This document shows positions 6,686 to 48,416 of a stretch of 48,416 nucleotides of DNA, in pieces (position 1 is the stretch's first letter; every line of letters starts with the position of its first letter). Position numbers and translations under genes: made by a program. The stretch covers positions 1 through 48,416 of the IMG/VR virus record IMGVR_UViG_3300036981_000509; one strand, written 5' to 3'. A model generated the notes under the pieces. It ran no database searches, had not been told where the DNA came from, and saw only the letters and a list, made by a program, of their open reading frames with translations. Origin of the DNA: a virus.

Positions 6686-7792
6686 CTATAACAAACCAAC
6701 CAGGAATTTAGCCGGATTATTCCGGGCCTTATCGACGATCTTGGCGTAGACCTGCGTCGTCGTCACCGAGCTATGTCCCATCGCCCCCGAGATCGCCAGC
6801 AGGCTCGCGCCGGCCGCCAGGCTCTGGGTCGCAAACGTGTGCCGGAGCGCGTGGCAGGAAACACCGGCCTTCTTCGCCCCGATCTTCACCAGGTAGCCGT
6901 CCACCATCGCCCGCAGCCCGCGCGTGCTGATCCGCTCCGGCGGCCCACTCAGCGCCAGGAAGAGCGCCGGCGAGTCGGCGTGCATCAGCCGGCGCACCGC
7001 CAGCCACTTCTCCACTGTCAGCCGGGTCTCATCCGTCAACAGCACGCCCCGTCTTTTGTCGCCCTTCCCCAGCGCCGCCAGCGTCCCCTCCTCCCCGGCC
7101 TCCAGATCCACGTCCGCCAGGTCCAGCCGGCTGACCTCGCACACCCGCAGCCCGTGGATCGCCATCAACGCCAGGATGCACTTATCCCGGATCTGCGCCG
7201 CCGGCTCCCGTGCCGTCTCCGTCGCGGCAAACAACGCCTTCAGCGAGACCAGCGTCAGATACGCGATCCGCTCGGATTGCTCCGTCTTGTCGACCGGACT
7301 CTTCAAGCCATAGCTCACATTCGCCGGCAGGAATCCATGCGCGTGCGCCATCTGATAGAAGCGCCGGATGCTGGCCAGCTTCCGCCCCACCGACGAAACC
7401 TTGTATTGCTCCACCAGGTGCGACCGGTACGCCTTCAAACCATACGTCGTCACCTGCGCCGGCGTCAGTCCCTGCTCCACCAGCCAGAGCAGATGCTGCT
7501 TCATATCGCTCCGGTAGCTGATCAGCGTCAGCGGGCTCGCGCGGCCATCCCCCACATCCAACTTCATCCAGCCGTCGAACAACTCCAGGATCCCCTCAAT
7601 ATCCAGGCGGACCGGCTCCAGCGCGACCTGTTCTGACTCCTGACCCCTGCTCCCTGCCTCCTGAGTCCTAGTGGGCGCCTCCGCCCCGGCCGACACCACA
7701 ACCTCCCACTCGGATGATGGCGCCACCCGGAACTCGACATCCTCGACCGTTACCGTCTCCCGGCCCGTTACCGTTTCCCGCCTGGTGTACAT
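6686..7792 (-). CDS. Tyrosine recombinase, Xer/phage integrase type
   Basis: This DNA strand-exchange enzyme has 368 residues from the ATG at 7790-7792 (ribosome site GGGGGG); longer upstream frames lack support. A SAM-like core-binding domain lies at about 65-165. The catalytic residues are Arg216 (HGLRVCEV), Lys243 (GKGDKR), His314/Arg317 (CHALRHTF), His340 (MGHSS) and Tyr349 (QVYAKI). Residues about 38-58 (AEAPTRTQEAGSRGQESEQV) come from a heptamer repeat read in frame. It sits in the early operon, far from attP, and is the second recombinase here. It may resolve multimers or invert DNA; the attP-linked enzyme at 12788 is the likelier integrase. Confidence 0.88.
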   Translation of the reverse strand: MYTRRETVTGRETVTVEDVEFRVAPSSEWEVVVSAGAEAPTRTQEAGSRGQESEQVALEPVRLDIEGILELFDGWMKLDVGDGRASPLTLISYRSDMKQHLLWLVEQGLTPAQVTTYGLKAYRSHLVEQYKVSSVGRKLASIRRFYQMAHAHGFLPANVSYGLKSPVDKTEQSERIAYLTLVSLKALFAATETAREPAAQIRDKCILALMAIHGLRVCEVSRLDLADVDLEAGEEGTLAALGKGDKRRGVLLTDETRLTVEKWLAVRRLMHADSPALFLALSGPPERISTRGLRAMVDGYLVKIGAKKAGVSCHALRHTFATQSLAAGASLLAISGAMGHSSVTTTQVYAKIVDKARNNPAKFLVGLL

Positions 7793-8355: not shown

Positions 8356-8398
8356 CTTCCCCTGCCGGAATGGGCCTGTCAACCCACGGCAGGGGAAG
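8356..8398. promoter_or_regulatory. 12-bp perfect hairpin in a leader
   Basis: CTTCCCCTGCCG (8356-8367) pairs with CGGCAGGGGAAG (8387-8398) across a 19-nt loop, just upstream of the small membrane gene starting at 8335. There is no U-tract, so an mRNA-stability or translation role is more likely than termination. Confidence 0.45.
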
Positions 8399-19521: not shown

Positions 19522-19554
19522 AGACCTTTAGGGTCTCGCAGACCCTAAAGGTCT
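19522..19554. repeat. 33-bp REP-like palindrome
   Basis: A 15-bp arm AGACCTTTAGGGTCT, a 3-bp centre and the inverse arm make a perfect palindrome. It belongs to a family of six here (19522, 25608, 31185 shortened, 31973, 42769, 45609), always in gaps or at gene ends. Confidence 0.85.
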
Positions 19555-22476: not shown

Positions 22477-22492
22477 CGACAGTAGCCCCCCG

Positions 22493-22819
22493 TCACTCCA
22501 CCATCTCCGCCTCAGCGATCACCCCCGCGCGCCGATTAGGACGTACGATCGTCACCCGGTACACCACGCCCGCAATCGTGAAACGATCCTGCACCTGGAT
22601 GTCCAGCGTCGTCGCACCCAGGATCACCACCCCGCCCCGATACTCCTCCGTGCCATTCCCGCCGGCTGCCCTGCCCCCCCCCGTACCGGTCCTAGCCACG
22701 CGCACCGTCTGCGCCGTCACCGTCGTCGCCCCGCGGCGCAACGTGATGCTCACCGGATTATCCCCGCGCACCGCTGCCAGATCCGCCGCCATCGCTGTCC
22801 AATCCGCCGCGCTCAACAT
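22493..22819 (-). CDS. Head-tail adaptor-like protein, tail-side copy
   Basis: The protein has 108 residues and a strong AGGAAGG site. About 85% of residues match the gene at 31639-31962. It begins MLSAADWTAMAADLAAVRGD, continues with a beta-barrel part (VILGATTLDIQVQDRFTIAGVVYRVTIVRPNRRAG) and fits small phage head-tail adaptor proteins. Its place beside the tape measure gene is unusual. The dispersed dyad lies directly upstream of both copies, so the duplication may include it. Confidence 0.72.
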   Translation of the reverse strand: MLSAADWTAMAADLAAVRGDNPVSITLRRGATTVTAQTVRVARTGTGGGRAAGGNGTEEYRGGVVILGATTLDIQVQDRFTIAGVVYRVTIVRPNRRAGVIAEAEMVE

Positions 22820-22829
22820 ACTGATCGCC

Positions 22830-22855
22830 TTCCTATAAACCCGGTACTAGGAAAT
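22830..22855 (+). promoter_or_regulatory. Dispersed dyad element, copy 5
   Basis: CCTATAA-N6-TACTAGG lies upstream of the adaptor-like gene and marks one side of the HNH cassette. Copy 6 (24089-24115) marks the other, in the same orientation. Confidence 0.65.
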
Positions 22856-22871
22856 CCATTGCCCAAACCCC

Positions 22872-22900
22872 TTGACAAAACCTGCCAGCGGGTGTACTAT
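22872..22900 (+). promoter_or_regulatory. Consensus promoter of the HNH cassette
   Basis: TTGACA (22872-22877), a 17-bp spacer and TACTAT (22895-22900) make a near-perfect sigma-70 promoter on the plus strand. It runs against the late operon and would start RNA near 22907. Confidence 0.82.
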
Positions 22901-22906
22901 TCTTCT

Positions 22907-23068
22907 TGCGAACATGCCGCCAAGCGCTCGCAAACACACCAAGCGGTTTTTTATTGGCCGTCTATATTCGCCGCCTCGGGGCGGTGTTCTAGGTCAACAC
23001 AACCACGGTCACAACCGCAGGTGTGCGAATGCTTGGCGGCAGCCTAGAACATCGCCCCGAGGCGTTTT
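22907..23068 (+). ncRNA. Structured leader RNA with possible pseudoknot
   Basis: Helix B pairs 22972-22993 with 23043-23064: 22 bp, one of them G-U, followed by TTTT. Helix A pairs 22915-22925 (UGCCGCCAAGC) with 23031-23041 (GCUUGGCGGCA), 11 perfect pairs. It extends through UCGCA/UGCGA (22928-22932 / 23024-23028) and CACC/GGUG. The 3' strand of A lies in the loop of B, so both helices together make a pseudoknot. AUGCCGCCAAGC recurs at the start of the next gene (23091-23102), so the 3' strand of A could also mask that start codon. No known RNA family is recognised. Confidence 0.7.
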
Positions 23069-23090
23069 CATTCTGGAAGGAGCTGTCCAA

Positions 23091-23315
23091 ATGCCGCCAA
23101 GCAAAACCAACCCCCGCGTGTACCTGAACTCTGACGACCTGCTCGTCCGCTTCATGAGCCTCCCGGAACGCCAGCAAGAATCCACCCTGGCTATCTTCGC
23201 CCAAGCCATCGACGATGCCGAAACCTCTGTCATCGAATCTCAACGCCTCATCGCCAGCGCCCGCTATGGCCACAAGCCTACGCTCCGCCCGGTTGAGCAA
23301 CCCATCGTCAACTGA
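23091..23315 (+). CDS. Small helical protein of the HNH cassette
   Basis: The protein has 74 residues from the ATG at 23091 with GAAGGAG nine bases upstream. An in-frame upstream extension runs through the structured leader and is unlikely to be translated. It is predicted helical (SDDLLVRFMSLPERQQESTLAIFAQAIDDAETSVIESQRLIASAR), with no recognised domain. The first 12 bases of the gene repeat the 5' strand of leader helix A, implying translational control. It precedes the HNH endonuclease gene. Confidence 0.65.
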   Translation: MPPSKTNPRVYLNSDDLLVRFMSLPERQQESTLAIFAQAIDDAETSVIESQRLIASARYGHKPTLRPVEQPIVN

Positions 23316-23326
23316 TCGGCCCATCC

Positions 23327-23358
23327 CTTCCCCGCTCCTGGTCTCAGGAGCGGGGAAG
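23327..23358 (+). promoter_or_regulatory. 14-bp perfect hairpin between cassette genes
   Basis: CTTCCCCGCTCCTG (23327-23340) and CAGGAGCGGGGAAG (23345-23358) enclose a GTCT loop. There is no U-tract, so partial termination, RNA processing or mRNA protection are all possible. Confidence 0.65.
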
Positions 23359-23372
23359 CCTGCAGGTGCATC

Positions 23373-24077
23373 ATGCGAACCATTCCCATCGTCAACAGCG
23401 ATCTCGTCGCCCTGGTGGACGACGCCGACTACGACGCTCTCAACCAGTTCGCCTGGTACGTTCACCATGGCTCTGACCGCCTATGCTATGCCATTCGCAT
23501 GACGGACGATGGCGGCAGCCTTCTGATGCACCGGGAGATTCTGCAACTCTCGCCAGATCAGGAAACAGACCACCGGGACAACAACGGCCTCAATAATCAG
23601 CGGGCGAATCTGCGCATCGGCACCCGCAGCCAGAACGGCCAGAATGCTCGCAAGCACCGTGACGCGAAACACTCGATCTACAAAGGGGTCTGCTGGAACA
23701 AGCAAAAGGAGGCGTGGCAAGCGAGTATCAAATTGCCGGAGCGCCGTCTCTTTCTTGGCATTTTCAAAACCCAACGCGAAGCCGGCCTGGCTTACAACAC
23801 AGCAGCCCGGAAATACTTCGGCGAATTTGCCCGCCTGAATCATGTTCCTGACACTCCAACCCCGGATGATCCACCGGTGCCCCGGCCCACCTTTTCATCG
23901 TCCTACCGTGGCGTCTGTTGGAACAAACGCCAGCTCAAGTGGGTTGCCTACATCGACAAAGACAAGCAGCGCACCAATCTTGGCGTTCACGATTCCGAAG
24001 AGGCCGCAGCCCGAACCTACGATGCCGCTGCCCGCCAGCTCTACGGACCCGAAGCCCGCCTCAACTTCCCGGATTGA
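23373..24077 (+). CDS. HNH homing endonuclease with two AP2 domains
   Basis: The protein has 234 residues. The HNH core spans about 50-92: LMHREIL (His53), DHRDNNGLNNQRANLRIGT (His67, Asn75, Asn79) and SQNGQN. Two AP2-type DNA-binding domains follow: 101-157 (SIYKGVCWNKQKEAWQASI...ARKYFGEFARLN) and 175-232 (SSYRGVCWNKRQLKWVAYI...ARQLYGPEARLN). This is the standard free-standing HNH-AP2 endonuclease layout of phages. It cuts alleles lacking the element and so spreads by repair. It is transcribed against the late operon from its own promoter. Confidence 0.9.
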   Translation: MRTIPIVNSDLVALVDDADYDALNQFAWYVHHGSDRLCYAIRMTDDGGSLLMHREILQLSPDQETDHRDNNGLNNQRANLRIGTRSQNGQNARKHRDAKHSIYKGVCWNKQKEAWQASIKLPERRLFLGIFKTQREAGLAYNTAARKYFGEFARLNHVPDTPTPDDPPVPRPTFSSSYRGVCWNKRQLKWVAYIDKDKQRTNLGVHDSEEAAARTYDAAARQLYGPEARLNFPD

Positions 24078-24088
24078 CCCTCGATTCA

Positions 24089-24115
24089 CTTCCCATAAGG
24101 TGTCTACCAGGAAGC
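24089..24115 (+). promoter_or_regulatory. Dispersed dyad element, copy 6
   Basis: CCCATAA-N6-TACCAGG lies between the stop codons of the convergent HNH and tail-chaperone genes. It precedes no gene, so not every copy can be a promoter. Confidence 0.6.
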
Positions 24116-25607: not shown

Positions 25608-25640
25608 AGACCTTTAGGGTCTGCGAGACCCTAAAGGTCT
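25608..25640. repeat. REP-like palindrome overlapping a gene end
   Basis: This 33-bp palindrome has AGACCTTTAGGGTCT arms. Its right arm encodes the last residues and the TAG stop of the glycosyltransferase gene, so insertion of the repeat seems to have set that gene's C-terminus. Confidence 0.85.
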
Positions 25641-31159: not shown

Positions 31160-31184
31160 CGCTCACCACCATCCATCCCAAACC

Positions 31185-31208
31185 CCTAGGGTCTGCGAGA
31201 CCCTAAGG
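31185..31208. repeat. REP-like palindrome, shortened copy
   Basis: CCTAGGGTCT-gcg-AGACCCTAAGG is a decayed version of the 33-bp palindrome. It lies in the gap between portal and gp10-like genes, in the late-operon transcript. Confidence 0.75.
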
Positions 31209-31589: not shown

Positions 31590-31637
31590 CCGCCTCCTGG
31601 CCCCTGACCACTAACCTCTGTCTCCCGTCCCCTGACC
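31590..31637 (+). repeat. Heptamer repeat between late genes
   Basis: CCTGGCCCCTGACCAC...TCCCGTCCCCTGA-type repeats fill the 52-bp gap between the gp10-like and adaptor genes. They are the same family as the coding tracts at 29397 and 37262. Confidence 0.55.
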
Positions 31638-31638
31638 G

Positions 31639-31962
31639 TCACTCCACCAACTCCGCCTCAGCCACCACCCCCGCGCGCCGGTTCGGTCGCACGATCGTCA
31701 CTCGGTACACCACCCCGGCCAGCGTAAAGCGATCTTGCACCTGGATGTCCAGCGTCGTTGATCCCAAGATCACCGCCCGGCCCCGGAACTCCTCCGACCC
31801 GTTCCCACGGGCTGCCCCGGCCGCCGAGTTGATCCTGGCCACCCGCACCGTCTGCGCCGCCACCGTCGTCGCCCCGCGCCGCAGCACGATGCTCACCGGA
31901 TTATCCCCGCGCACCAGCGCCAGATCCGCCGCCATCGCTGTCCAGTCCGCCGCGCTCAACAT
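31639..31962 (-). CDS. Head-tail adaptor-like protein, head-side copy
   Basis: The protein has 107 residues and is about 85% identical to the product of 22493-22819. Both have the start LSAADWTAMAADLA and core ILGSTTLDIQVQDRFTLAGVVYRVTIVRPNRRAG. Its position next to gp10-like and portal genes is the usual one for such adaptors, so this is probably the ancestral copy. A REP palindrome and a dyad element lie upstream. Confidence 0.72.
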   Translation of the reverse strand: MLSAADWTAMAADLALVRGDNPVSIVLRRGATTVAAQTVRVARINSAAGAARGNGSEEFRGRAVILGSTTLDIQVQDRFTLAGVVYRVTIVRPNRRAGVVAEAELVE

Positions 31963-31972
31963 GCTCTACTCC

Positions 31973-32005
31973 AGACCTTTAGGGTCTCGCAGACCCTAAA
32001 GGTCT
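31973..32005. repeat. 33-bp REP-like palindrome
   Basis: AGACCTTTAGGGTCT-cgc-inverse arm, intact, directly upstream of the adaptor-like gene and abutting dyad copy 8. Confidence 0.85.
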
Positions 32006-38201: not shown

Positions 38202-39278
38202 TCATGCCGCCGCTGCGTGGGGTCCGCAGGCCGAAGCAACCCCGCCCACGGCCCGATCGCCAGATCCGCTTAACACTCGTCGTCTCAATCGATACGTGTT
38301 CGCGTGGCGCGCGTGTCCCAACCAGCTTTGTACTGAAGCATCCATCTCCTTGAACACCAACTCTCCGTGGATCAACCGCCAACGAAAAGCGCGTATCTTT
38401 CTGCGCATGCGCCTAATACTGCCTTCGCGCAGCAGACGATGCGTCGCCCAAAGGCGATAGCCCAGGAAGCTCACACCCTGCGCCGCCGCGAACACCTGTG
38501 TCTTGCTGTTCAACTGGAGCATCAGTCGTTCCGCGAGAAACTGCGCGATCCGCACTCGTGTCGCCTGCAATGCGTGCTTGTCCCGATCCACGACGACCGC
38601 GTCGTCCATGTAGCGGACGTACATCTCAACGCGCAACTGCTGCTTCACGAACACATCCAGCTCGTGCAGATAAACGTTAGCGCACAACTGGCTTGTCAGA
38701 TTGCCAATCGGCAGACCAAACTCACCGCCAGCAACCGGCCAACTCTCGATGATCTCCGTGATCAGTCCCAGCGTCCGGTCACACGCGATATGCCGGCGGA
38801 GCAGACTGAGCAAGATCGCGTGATTGACGCTTGGGAAGTAGCTGCGCACGTCCATTTTCAGCACGTAGACTTCATCGTCCCAACGCCGTGCGGCCCGTTG
38901 CAGGAACTGCGTCAGCCGATCAGCCCCCGCATGTGTACCCTTCCCGACGCGACACGCATAGCTGTCCCGCATGAACCGCGCCTCCCAGATCGGCTCGATC
39001 ACGCGGCACAGCGCATGGTGTACAACGCGGTCGCGAAACGGCAGTGCGGCGATCTGGCGCTCTTTCGGCTCATAGACCGTGAAAACGTTGTAGCGTCCAG
39101 TCTGGTATACGCCCTGCTGCAACTCAGCCCGAAGCGCCAGCAATTCCTCCTCCAGATTCGCCCCGAAGCGCAAGACATCCGCCGCGTAACGCTTACCACG
39201 CCGCGCCTTGAGATAGGCGGCATGGAGGTTGCCGAAATCCACAATCGACTCGAACAGATGCGTAAAAGTCTTCGCCAT
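38202..39278 (-). CDS. DGR reverse transcriptase
   Basis: The enzyme copies the template repeat into mutated cDNA. It has 358 residues from the ATG at 39276-39278; a longer upstream extension is possible. RT motifs are present: Asp143 (YVLKMDVRSYFPS), LPIGNLTSQ at 189-197 and the catalytic YMDD at 223-226, followed by VSFLGYRL. The LPIGNLTSQ form is usual in retron and diversity-generating RTs. Gene order target-Avd-TR-RT is the same as in Bordetella phage BPP-1. The last 20 residues are Ala/Gly-rich. Confidence 0.92.
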   Translation of the reverse strand: MAKTFTHLFESIVDFGNLHAAYLKARRGKRYAADVLRFGANLEEELLALRAELQQGVYQTGRYNVFTVYEPKERQIAALPFRDRVVHHALCRVIEPIWEARFMRDSYACRVGKGTHAGADRLTQFLQRAARRWDDEVYVLKMDVRSYFPSVNHAILLSLLRRHIACDRTLGLITEIIESWPVAGGEFGLPIGNLTSQLCANVYLHELDVFVKQQLRVEMYVRYMDDAVVVDRDKHALQATRVRIAQFLAERLMLQLNSKTQVFAAAQGVSFLGYRLWATHRLLREGSIRRMRRKIRAFRWRLIHGELVFKEMDASVQSWLGHARHANTYRLRRRVLSGSGDRAVGGVASACGPHAAAA

Positions 39279-39464
39279 AACAATTCCATTGCGGCACGGT
39301 CGGACGGTCGTCACGCTACTGGCCCAACCATGCCGCCAGTCCCCCGGTTGTGCGGGGTTTCATGTGTTCGCCTGGCCCAACGCGTGGACTCAGGCAGGAT
39401 GGTGGCCCCAAGGCGATAAGGCCCAGTTCGGTAGCCCGTGAGCGTCCGAAGTCTGACAGTATCG

Positions 39465-39576
39465 CTTGCCGACGCGAAAGCCGATATTGTTGTTCGCGTT
39501 TGCCGGTACGTTATTCAGGTTGAGCGCGAACACGCCCGCATTCGTTTCATTGTTCCAGTTTCCACCACGGAGCGCC
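39465..39576 (-). other. DGR template repeat (TR)
   Basis: This 112-bp segment aligns without gaps to 39993-40104 at the end of the target gene. Twelve of thirteen differences are at adenines of the TR coding (minus) strand, the hallmark of DGR mutagenesis. The TR is rich in AAC/AAT Asn codons, which adenine changes can turn into many residues. The 186 bp between TR and RT (39279-39464) hold no gene and probably belong to the TR RNA. Confidence 0.95.
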
Positions 39577-39591
39577 GCTACGGCCGCCACC

Positions 39592-39983: not shown

Positions 39984-41384
39984 CTACACGGCCTTGCCGA
40001 CGCGAAAGCCGAGATCGTAGATCGCGTGTGCCGGGACGTTATTCAGGGTGAGCGCGAACACGCCCGCACTCGTTCCATAGTTCCAGCCTCCACAACGGAG
40101 CGCCACTCGAATATGATTGGGCGCTGCCCCAGGATCGGTCGTGTCAAACCAATAACCGTCGTTACCGTAGGCCGCGGCGCCATTCCCATCGCTGGTAGCT
40201 GGAATGGCAAAACCCTTCAGTCGCGCATCGCTGTTGCGCAACGTGAGGACTTTGTTCACGGAGGTCATGCCGTTGGCGATATGGACGCCGGAGTCCACCA
40301 CGATCTCATACGGCCCGGCGGCTGGATTACCGCTGGCTGTAGTCAACACATTGCCCGTGTTGCTGGCGATGGTCAGTCGGCTGCCGGCGCCATCCATCAA
40401 ATAACAGGTCGCGCCTGCGCCGCCGCCGGCTGTGAAGAAGTCAGTCGTCCAGCTCTTGTCGCTATCCGTGAGGGTCTTTGTGCCCACGGCCGTCGAGCGG
40501 CCATAAGGGCTGGCCGCCAGGCTAACATCCAACGACGCCAGCACCAGCGCATGGCCCTGATGCCCCACCGTGCCCGTCGCCTCCGCGCCCAGGTCGTGCG
40601 TGGCATTGGCAATCGTCAGGTGCGTCGTATCCACCGCCGTGGCGATAACGTAGACGCCGTTGTAACCAACGGTGCCCGCGATTGTCGCGTGCTCGCCGGC
40701 GGCCAAGCCGTGCGCCGTGGCCGTCTCGACGCTGATCGTGGTCGCATTGCCGTCGATGGCCGCGATGGCGACCACCTCGTCAGCCGTCTGCATGTGGAGG
40801 CCCAGCGTCCACTCCCACATATTGCCGTTCAGATCGGCGGGGCCATTGGGATCGTGCAGCAGATTCCAGGTATTCGGCCCGGTCCCGGTCAGATTCGCAT
40901 ACCATCCCGCATTCCTGGCGTTGCACGCCAAATCCAACTGCGCCGTCTCGGTCGTGTAGGTCACATCCGCCGGTGGGTTGGTATTCCGGTTATTGCCGTG
41001 GGGGAGTAGACTCATTTTGTGTGAGAGCATGGCGAGGCTGGCCCACTCGAAGGCGGTCAGCAGATGGACGCCGGGGCCGTAGACGGCACACGCATTGCTG
41101 GCCGCCTTACGCGCGTTCCAGTATGAAATGTAGCGCCAGGGCGGCTTGGCGTAACTCGTGCGCGCCGCCACCGTCCCTGGGTCTGCCGAGTCCGCCACAT
41201 CCGGCTTGTCGCCGCCCGTGCCGTTGAAGGCGTTTGGCTGGCTGGCGATAAAACGGCTGCACCAAAAGCCGCCGAACGTCACGCCACTCACATCGGGATG
41301 CGTGAATGGCGCCACCCAGTACCATTCCGCTTGTTGTGCGCCCCCGCCGCGGAGCGCATGTCGGGAACCGCCGTAAAATGGCAT
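39984..41384 (-). CDS. DGR target protein (C-type-lectin / FGE-like fold)
   Basis: The protein has 466 residues. Residues 70-215 carry the formylglycine-enzyme/C-type-lectin pattern: WRYISYWNARKAA, LLTAFEWASLAML, NTWNLLHD, DLNGNMWEWTLGL. A beta-rich insert follows at about 222-290. The fold resumes, ending in the variable repeat (GWNYGTSAGVF...VPAHAIYDLGFRVGK). Diversified positions, compared with the Asn-rich TR product, include Gly, Tyr, Ser, Thr, His, Ile, Tyr, Asp and Leu. It probably binds receptors on the host surface. Confidence 0.9.
   Translation of the reverse strand: MPFYGGSRHALRGGGAQQAEWYWVAPFTHPDVSGVTFGGFWCSRFIASQPNAFNGTGGDKPDVADSADPGTVAARTSYAKPPWRYISYWNARKAASNACAVYGPGVHLLTAFEWASLAMLSHKMSLLPHGNNRNTNPPADVTYTTETAQLDLACNARNAGWYANLTGTGPNTWNLLHDPNGPADLNGNMWEWTLGLHMQTADEVVAIAAIDGNATTISVETATAHGLAAGEHATIAGTVGYNGVYVIATAVDTTHLTIANATHDLGAEATGTVGHQGHALVLASLDVSLAASPYGRSTAVGTKTLTDSDKSWTTDFFTAGGGAGATCYLMDGAGSRLTIASNTGNVLTTASGNPAAGPYEIVVDSGVHIANGMTSVNKVLTLRNSDARLKGFAIPATSDGNGAAAYGNDGYWFDTTDPGAAPNHIRVALRCGGWNYGTSAGVFALTLNNVPAHAIYDLGFRVGKAV
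39993..40104 (-). other. DGR variable repeat (VR)
   Basis: This is the last 112 bp of the target gene, ending seven bases before the TAG stop. It differs from TR at 13 sites, 12 at TR adenines. Its conserved 3' end (GGCTTTCGCGTCGGCAAG on the minus strand) is the likely start of mutagenic homing. Confidence 0.95.
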
Positions 41385-42768: not shown

Positions 42769-42800
42769 GACCTTTAGGGTCTGCGAGACCCTAAAGGTCT
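42769..42800. repeat. REP-like palindrome in the packaging leader
   Basis: This nearly complete 33-bp palindrome (arms GACCTTTAGGGTCT) lies between the rightward promoter and the first packaging gene, so it would be the 5' leader of that mRNA. Confidence 0.8.
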
Positions 42801-45608: not shown

Positions 45609-45641
45609 AGACCTTTAGGGTCTCGCAGACCCTAAAGGTCT
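45609..45641. repeat. 33-bp REP-like palindrome
   Basis: An intact copy with AGACCTTTAGGGTCT arms lies between the winged-helix gene and a dyad element. Confidence 0.85.
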
Positions 45642-47075: not shown

Positions 47076-47427
47076 CCTTAACGAAGTTTCCCGAAGCATC
47101 TCCGAAGCTTGTCGCGAGAAGCTTCGGAGATGCTTCGCTCGCTGCGGGCCTTAACTCAAGTATATCTGAGAGAACTCTATAGGTTTGGCTGCAAAGCCTT
47201 CGATCCTTCGTCATTTTCGGGCCTGTTTGGCCCTTACTGCCGACGTGTTCCGCGTTATGTTGGCTCGCTCGCGCAGGCTTCCGAAGCATCGAAGCTTCTA
47301 TGGGGGGGATGAGAGGGAAAAAACAAATTTGTTTTTTCACCCTCACCCCCCGGCGCGATGCTTCGATGCTTCGGAAATGGCCCAAAATCGACGCGTTTAG
47401 CAGGTTCATCGTGCGTTCTCGTTAAGG
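47076..47427. repeat. Hairpin-rich non-coding block with terminal inverted repeats
   Basis: TGATCCTTAACGA (47072-47084) and its inverse TCGTTAAGGCTCA (47419-47431) flank this block with one mismatch. Inside are a 19-bp perfect hairpin (47092-47110 / 47119-47137, loop 8) and a larger structure. The latter has 17-bp arms (47279-47295 / 47360-47376) around G7/C6 runs and a 20-bp AT palindrome at 47318-47337. GAAGCATC/GATGCTTC motifs recur in both. It lacks a convincing gene. A MITE-like element or a replication origin beside the primase-helicase gene are the main readings. Confidence 0.6.
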
Positions 47428-47428
47428 C

Positions 47429-48416
47429 TCAGGGGATGTCGATGCCGTAGCGGCCCATCAGGGCTTGCAAGGTCGGCTCATCGATTGCCAGGCACGCCCG
47501 GCGAGTATCAGGGTCCTGCTCCCGCTTGGACAGGCCGAGATCCTCGCTGAGGATGGTGGCCACCCGGCGCGGGCTCACCTTCTCGTCCGGGTCGAGCGTG
47601 TCCAGCAGGAACCGCACCTTCTCGGCAATGCTCTTCATGCTCCAATCCCGCCGCGGGCCGGTCAGCGTCTCCTCCGGGTGATAGAAGATCTCCGCCAGCA
47701 CCTGGACGATGATCGCCGGCAGCGACATCTGGCGGTCCGTAATCAGCGTGGCGTTGTAGGCCCGTACAAAAAGATTGATTTGATCCAGCATGGCCGGGTC
47801 ATCGATGATCGCCTTCAGCGCCAGCGTCACCTGGTCTAACCGCGGCTCGATGCTCTGATCGCTCAGCGCCACGTCGATATCGATCTCCCGGAACGTGCGC
47901 AGCCGGTAGGCCAGGCACTTGTTGCGCAGCGCCAGCGCGTCCGCCCAGAACTGCCGCGTGATGATCCGCGGCACATCCGGCCGCGGCCGGGCCGTGCTCA
48001 TGCGCTTGGTCAGGCAGCGGGACTCGGTCGCCCGGTCGGTGAACATCCGCCGGGTCGCCAGGATCTTCGGCCCGTACACGTCTTTTGCTGACGGGTAGTA
48101 ACTCTCGCTGTTCTCGTCCTTCTCAGCGCGCAACACCACGCCCCCGCGCGAGTAGCCGACGTTGACAATCTTGATCATCTCGCTCTCCGCGTCCGAGTTG
48201 GCGAAATCCGCCTCGTCCATGATCAGGGTGCCGCGGAACAGATCGATCAGCCGGAAGATCGGTGACGAGGTGGACGCGCCGCTCACGAACATCGGTCGAT
48301 AGCACAGCGCCCCGATCGCCTGCAGGAAGCGGCTCTTGCCCGTGCCGTAGTCGCCGAAGGCCCGGAGGTACGGCAGCGTCTCGAAGGCGTCATAGACCCA
48401 GGAGAACAGCACGTAG
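47429..48416 (-). CDS. Primase-helicase, C-terminal part and overlap
   Basis: This is the 3' part of the gene that begins at 1883. The portion 48093-48416 duplicates bases 1-324 and encodes the same residues. It contains Walker A (GDYGTGKS) and LIMDEADFAN. The unique part 47429-48092 encodes the end of the helicase and a helical C-terminal region (WSMKSIAEKVRFLLDTLDPDEKVSPRRVATILSEDLG), winged-helix-like, as in D5-type helicases. The stop is in the terminal inverted repeat of the adjacent hairpin block. Confidence 0.88.
   Translation of the reverse strand, partial: YVLFSWVYDAFETLPYLRAFGDYGTGKSRFLQAIGALCYRPMFVSGASTSSPIFRLIDLFRGTLIMDEADFANSDAESEMIKIVNVGYSRGGVVLRAEKDENSESYYPSAKDVYGPKILATRRMFTDRATESRCLTKRMSTARPRPDVPRIITRQFWADALALRNKCLAYRLRTFREIDIDVALSDQSIEPRLDQVTLALKAIIDDPAMLDQINLFVRAYNATLITDRQMSLPAIIVQVLAEIFYHPEETLTGPRRDWSMKSIAEKVRFLLDTLDPDEKVSPRRVATILSEDLGLSKREQDPDTRRACLAIDEPTLQALMGRYGIDIP
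48093..48416. repeat. Terminal overlap, right copy
   Basis: This matches bases 1-324 with nine silent differences. Using it as the join, the circular genome is about 48,092 bp. Confidence 0.95.

Follow-up and report, generated by a model that had tools for sequence, protein, structure and literature searches.

The window analyzed here, 48,416 nt of DNA from an uncultivated bacterial or archaeal virus, carries tail, head and terminase genes. Two relatives, G030 (53 kb) and L061 (7.4 kb), were found by scanning with a 26-base near-palindrome (TTCCkAgTA-N6-TTATmGGAA), and their head and tail proteins are mostly 70-90% identical to those of the window. The near-palindrome is common to G030 and L061 and was the only handle that yielded relatives; the window has about 15 copies of it (1902, 6681, 7807, 12404, 15457, 19485, 22828, 24088, 27875, 32003, 34852, 37454, 38168, 42621 and 45656), mostly intergenic and often just 5' of a start, and it probably serves the phage as a promoter or as a binding site for a repressor.

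Comparison with G030 places the locus of interest in a stretch, 22477-24085, that is missing from this relative between its tape-measure start and the palindrome upstream. The two records are collinear on both flanks, and in G030 about 5 bases separate the tape-measure start from the palindrome equivalent to window positions 24088-24113. Since the stretch is absent from among the tail genes of G030, 22477-24085 is an insertion at the tape-measure start. On the minus strand it contains a 333-bp gene (22490-22822) that is present a second time at 31636-31965, the copies being 84-91% identical; one copy is found in the segments of G030 that were read, which exclude about 12 kb (G030 13.2-25 kb).

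The plus-strand half of the insertion comprises a candidate promoter, a leader, a small gene, a 14-bp hairpin and an HNH-AP2 gene, and is thus a self-contained cassette, which runs antisense within the tail operon. The small gene (ORF73, 23091-23315, 74 codons without the stop) is an orphan: no convincing relative emerged when viral contigs and genome contigs were scanned at the peptide level, from tblastn against phages and plasmids, or from Pfam, PHROGs, NCBIfam and PDB. Its product is modeled by AlphaFold from the single sequence as two helices (pLDDT 81), and comparison of the model with known folds gave nothing at E < 0.001. The hairpin (23327-23358, plus strand; -31.4 kcal/mol, z -4.75) lies directly 5' of the likely ribosome-binding site of the next gene (23373-24077, plus strand), which encodes an HNH endonuclease with one or more AP2 domains. 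An HNH-type nuclease gene inserted where G030 has an empty site fits a free-standing homing endonuclease, and we consider the cassette a putative homing element, whose nuclease would cut the empty allele and spread through repair. The insertion could not be recognized in the initial annotation, which had the leader ahead of a small gene and an HNH endonuclease. Searches of the whole G030 record with the small gene and the leader gave no match.

Elements of the putative leader RNA

Upstream of the leader is a sigma-70-like sequence, TTGACA-17-TACTAT (22872-22900, plus strand), which matches the consensus at 10 of 12 positions. Chance alone would give about 0.8 sites of this quality in the stretch that was scanned, and what had been called a consensus promoter is better described as a plausible candidate. 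The putative leader RNA extends over about 184 nt of the plus strand (22907-23090), its 5' end being placed by the position of this promoter.

The leader contains two segments that relate to the start of the small gene. Segment A (22914-22925), ATGCCGCCAAGC, is an exact copy of the first 12 bases of the gene (segment A', 23091-23102, ATGCCGCCAAGC again), and the copied stretch starts exactly at the ATG. Segment B (23030-23041) is complementary to both. Segment A sits in the loop of a weak 5' hairpin, TGCGA/TCGCA (22907-22932; -7.3 kcal/mol, z -0.7), whose TCGCA arm can alternatively pair beside segment B. Between A and A' lies a long stem, P2, with its 5' arm at 22972-22993 and its 3' arm at 23043-23064; the 3' arm starts one base after B and is followed by GTTTTCATT. 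The stem has 22 contiguous pairs, 21 Watson-Crick and one G-U (22984/23052), and can be extended by a 23rd, terminal U-G pair (22994/23042). A Shine-Dalgarno-like sequence, GGAAGGAG (23075-23082), lies 8 nt ahead of the small-gene start. All of these elements are on the plus strand.

Segment B lies within the 49-nt loop of P2 (22994-23042) and can pair in two ways. With A it forms 11 Watson-Crick pairs (22915-22925 with 23031-23041), extended by a G-U pair (22926/23030) and, after one mismatch, by five further pairs (22928-22932/23024-23028), giving 12+5 in total. With the gene start it forms 12 Watson-Crick pairs (23030-23041 with 23092-23103). Direct reading and enumeration of pairs thus bear out, base for base, the 22-bp stem of the initial annotation, as well as the repeated 12 bases and the ability of B to pair with either copy; the helix between A and B, previously given as 11 bp, is longer than claimed, and the pairing of B with the gene start, at 12 Watson-Crick pairs, had likewise been understated. 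As B sits in the loop of P2, the two helices would be interlocked if both form. At 46, 37 and 26 nt, the loops seem long enough to accommodate either pseudoknot.

Non-randomness, folding and coding status

To judge these elements against chance, we defined a triple as an exact repeat of at least 11 nt with its reverse complement between the copies, all within 250 nt. The window has one such triple, against none in 30 windows simulated from an order-3 Markov model; lowering the threshold to 10 nt still gave none in the simulations, and no triple of this kind occurs in 639,549 bases of other loci, mostly phage DNA. The window has no other uninterrupted stem as long as P2, and stems of at least 17 pairs did not occur in five simulations. 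Against shuffled sequences the folding z-score is -4.4 for the whole leader and -8.4 for the P2 hairpin.

The duplex energies are -31.1 kcal/mol for A with B, and -21.8 kcal/mol or better for B with A'. The best nested fold of 22907-23110 has an energy of -83.1 kcal/mol, compared with estimated totals, with P2 forced and its partner segments kept unpaired, of about -95 kcal/mol for P2 with the A:B helix and about -90 kcal/mol for P2 with B:A'. These totals are our own estimates, sums of the separate energies with an assumed pseudoknot penalty of about 9.6 kcal/mol, a textbook value, as opposed to figures computed by pseudoknot software. By this rough estimate a pseudoknot of P2 with either helix is energetically feasible. 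The pseudoknot of the initial annotation thus stands as to the interlocked positions of its helices and is plausible in energy, and its formation is predicted. The nested folds also pair part of the gene start with about 22945-22960, so that even the state in which A binds B may not be fully open.

The reading frame through the leader is open and in frame with the small gene, the ATG at 22914 being in frame with that at 23091. A reading of the leader as an in-frame N-terminal extension was rejected on codon score and GC3, which for the leader are -0.30 per codon and 0.51, values unlike those of the small gene (+0.05, coding-like, and 0.76) and the HNH gene (+0.07 and 0.70). On this compositional evidence the leader is probably non-coding. 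As to the strand that acts, the pairs 22984/23052, 22994/23042 and 22926/23030 are G-U in the plus-strand RNA and would be A-C mismatches in the RNA of the other strand. This pattern weakly favors function of the plus-strand RNA; the argument is a slight one because two of the three pairs are terminal and were counted for being G-U, and because the minus-strand RNA of P2 folds well too (z -6.8).

Proposed regulation and alternatives

The structure is thus real and not random, and the leader probably acts as a regulatory RNA. We propose, with a probability of roughly one half, that it is the cis-acting untranslated leader of the inserted cassette and regulates translation of the small gene together with that of the HNH gene. 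The long P2 hairpin would present segment B in its loop. Were B taken up by A near the transcript's 5' end (12+5 pairs), the gene start would stay free of B; were it instead to bind A' (12 pairs), the start codon would be masked. An intact new transcript should adopt the A:B pairing, since A is made first and pairs better. If A were lost or occupied, be it through 5' trimming, a transcript start further downstream, or the presence of a ribosome, protein or other RNA, B would become free to cover the start codon. The three-part switch of the initial annotation is accordingly well founded in its elements and in the mutual exclusivity of its pairings, which go far beyond chance, and conjectural in the switching itself: we infer transcription from the candidate promoter, formation of the helices, the exchange between them and the direction of control.

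Parallels exist in several phage systems. In the c4-icd-ant locus of phage P1, the leader that precedes a small gene and then an effector gene contains an antisense segment, an arrangement shared by the window. No long P2-like hairpin is known in c4, and the window's leader differs in that it matches no Rfam model. Phage P4 offers the same logic, its CI RNA being able to pair both with the upstream seqA and with the downstream seqC (PMC4825925); here too a central antisense segment is complementary to an upstream and a downstream segment. As a control, the script used on the window was run on P4 with a less strict threshold and gave short candidate triples of 7-8 nt at 8377/8456/8644 and 8409/8442/8661, in the expected region and order. 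Unlike P4, where a processed, stable antisense RNA by its pairing ends transcription and gives prophage immunity, A' is here the start codon itself, the loop that contains B closes on a 22-bp stem, and the gene under putative control belongs to an endonuclease cassette.

In gene order the locus resembles Gifsy-1 IsrK, with its leader, small ORF and effector (PMC4825925). At IsrK/orf45/anrP a structured leader precedes a very small ORF, the translation of which is set by exclusive leader pairings, and then the effector; the leader, small ORF and HNH-AP2 gene of the window are all on the plus strand, as a locus of this type requires, and would be read as a single transcript. The downstream gene of IsrK is, however, an antirepressor, and IsrK has a demonstrated short trans-acting form and, unlike the present leader, a family of its own. 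The initial annotation knew no RNA family of this form; this holds for Rfam, but the logic of A, anti-A and A' is that of seqA-seqB-seqC in P4 and is close to IsrK. As for the cassette, several phage homing endonucleases, among them I-TevI, segB and mobE, are held back by RNA structure, and seg43 has a stable hairpin just 5' of its ribosome-binding site (PMC2988022). The window shares with these T4-type genes a phage endonuclease cassette under putative control by RNA structure and, with seg43, a hairpin (23327-23358) just before the ribosome-binding site of the nuclease gene. Theirs are hairpins at the ribosome-binding site, with neither a copy of the start codon nor a pseudoknot.

The resemblance to P4 and IsrK also raises the prospect that the leader acts in trans. 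If it ended or were cut after P2, an RNA of about 160 nt would result, whose loop segment B could bind the start of the full-length cassette mRNA and silence or activate it, in the manner of P4 CI RNA, P1 c4 RNA and IsrK. The location of B in a hairpin loop, the short U run after P2, the P4-like order of A, B and A' and the IsrK-like order of leader, small ORF and gene (PMC4825925) fit this reading. The U run is weak, however, and a 49-nt loop would be unusual for a terminator; a terminator scan, which allows loops of up to 8 only, made no plus-strand call at P2, and Rfam gave no family above its gathering score for the leader, with C4 and isrK missing even among the weak matches (E up to 10). 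We consider this reading unlikely. Of similarly low probability is that the direct and inverted repeats are functionless traces of template switching or of the insertion event, the cassette being young. The cassette is indeed inserted in this phage and is not found at the same place in G030, and conservation is seen in no homologue; yet several separate copying events would be needed, the order of the pieces is unlike a single contiguous inverted duplication, the boundaries of the copy match the start codon, and a second strong hairpin stands ahead of the HNH gene.

Improbable, in our judgment, is a role in DNA: TGCCGCCAAGC, present twice directly and once inverted, would be an operator bound by a regulatory protein, perhaps by the cassette endonuclease through its AP2 domains, which would thereby repress its own promoter as I-TevI does. 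Three identical 11-base sites do lie shortly downstream of the promoter and the adjacent gene encodes an AP2 domain; plant AP2/ERF proteins bind GCCGCC, a motif that is frequent in DNA of this composition. Autorepression through operator sites has a precedent in I-TevI (PMC2988022). An operator would nevertheless leave unexplained P2, the copy that starts exactly at the ATG, the five-pair extension common to A and B only, and the plus-strand G-U pairs.

The cis-acting leader might, more speculatively, stand for a new class of pseudoknot switch, in which a 5' copy of the gene start competes with the start codon for an antisense loop, and whose evolved role would be to silence a mobile endonuclease cassette up to the point at which its transcript undergoes trimming or binding, or the opposite; we consider this doubtful. 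If true, it would be a compact RNA switch built on a start-codon decoy, and RNA control of mobile endonuclease genes would reach beyond T4-like hairpins into an unrelated phage group.

Searches for relatives, and other repeats of the window

Pattern and blastn searches of viral contigs, species genomes, phages and plasmids found no homologue of the leader, and blastn of the leader against phage records gave no match to indicate homology with P4. The regions upstream of 18 relatives of the HNH gene hold nothing resembling it, and the leader is therefore not general to these endonucleases. The covariance model of HEARO, the IscB/IsrB-associated RNA, did not match, and the protein is HNH with AP2, not RuvC-HNH. 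There was likewise no Rfam match of the leader to group I introns or type III antitoxin RNAs; for a type III toxin-antitoxin system, in which tandem pseudoknot repeats precede a ToxN-like toxin, no tandem repeat was seen by eye within 22907-23090, and Pfam, PHROG and NCBIfam gave no match for the small gene. The leader loop matches 25 bases of L061; these fall inside an apparent gene, and the match was taken as chance. A derivation of the P2 arms from the phage's 26-bp palindrome was ruled out by scores below zero.

The window has several other repeats. A 33-nt hairpin, AGACCTTTAGGGTCTCGCAGACCCTAAAGGTCT, occurs in both orientations at 19522-19554, 25608-25640, 31973-32005, 42769-42800 and 45609-45641, with a weaker sixth at 31182-31206, and its pattern had no match in other viral contigs. 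On the minus strand a diversity-generating retroelement (38202-39314, 39465-39579 and 39993-40107) combines a reverse transcriptase with a 115-nt pair of template and variable repeats, in which 12 of 14 differences fall at template adenines. A cluster of inverted repeats with arms of up to 49 nt surrounds CTTCGGAAGCATCGAAGC at 47092-47376, and a 300-base direct repeat, 97% identical, lies near both ends of the record (1-300 and 48093-48392). Degenerate heptamer tracts of the CCCCTGA type are found at 7633, 24205, 29399, 31597 and 37267, with similar ones in G030.
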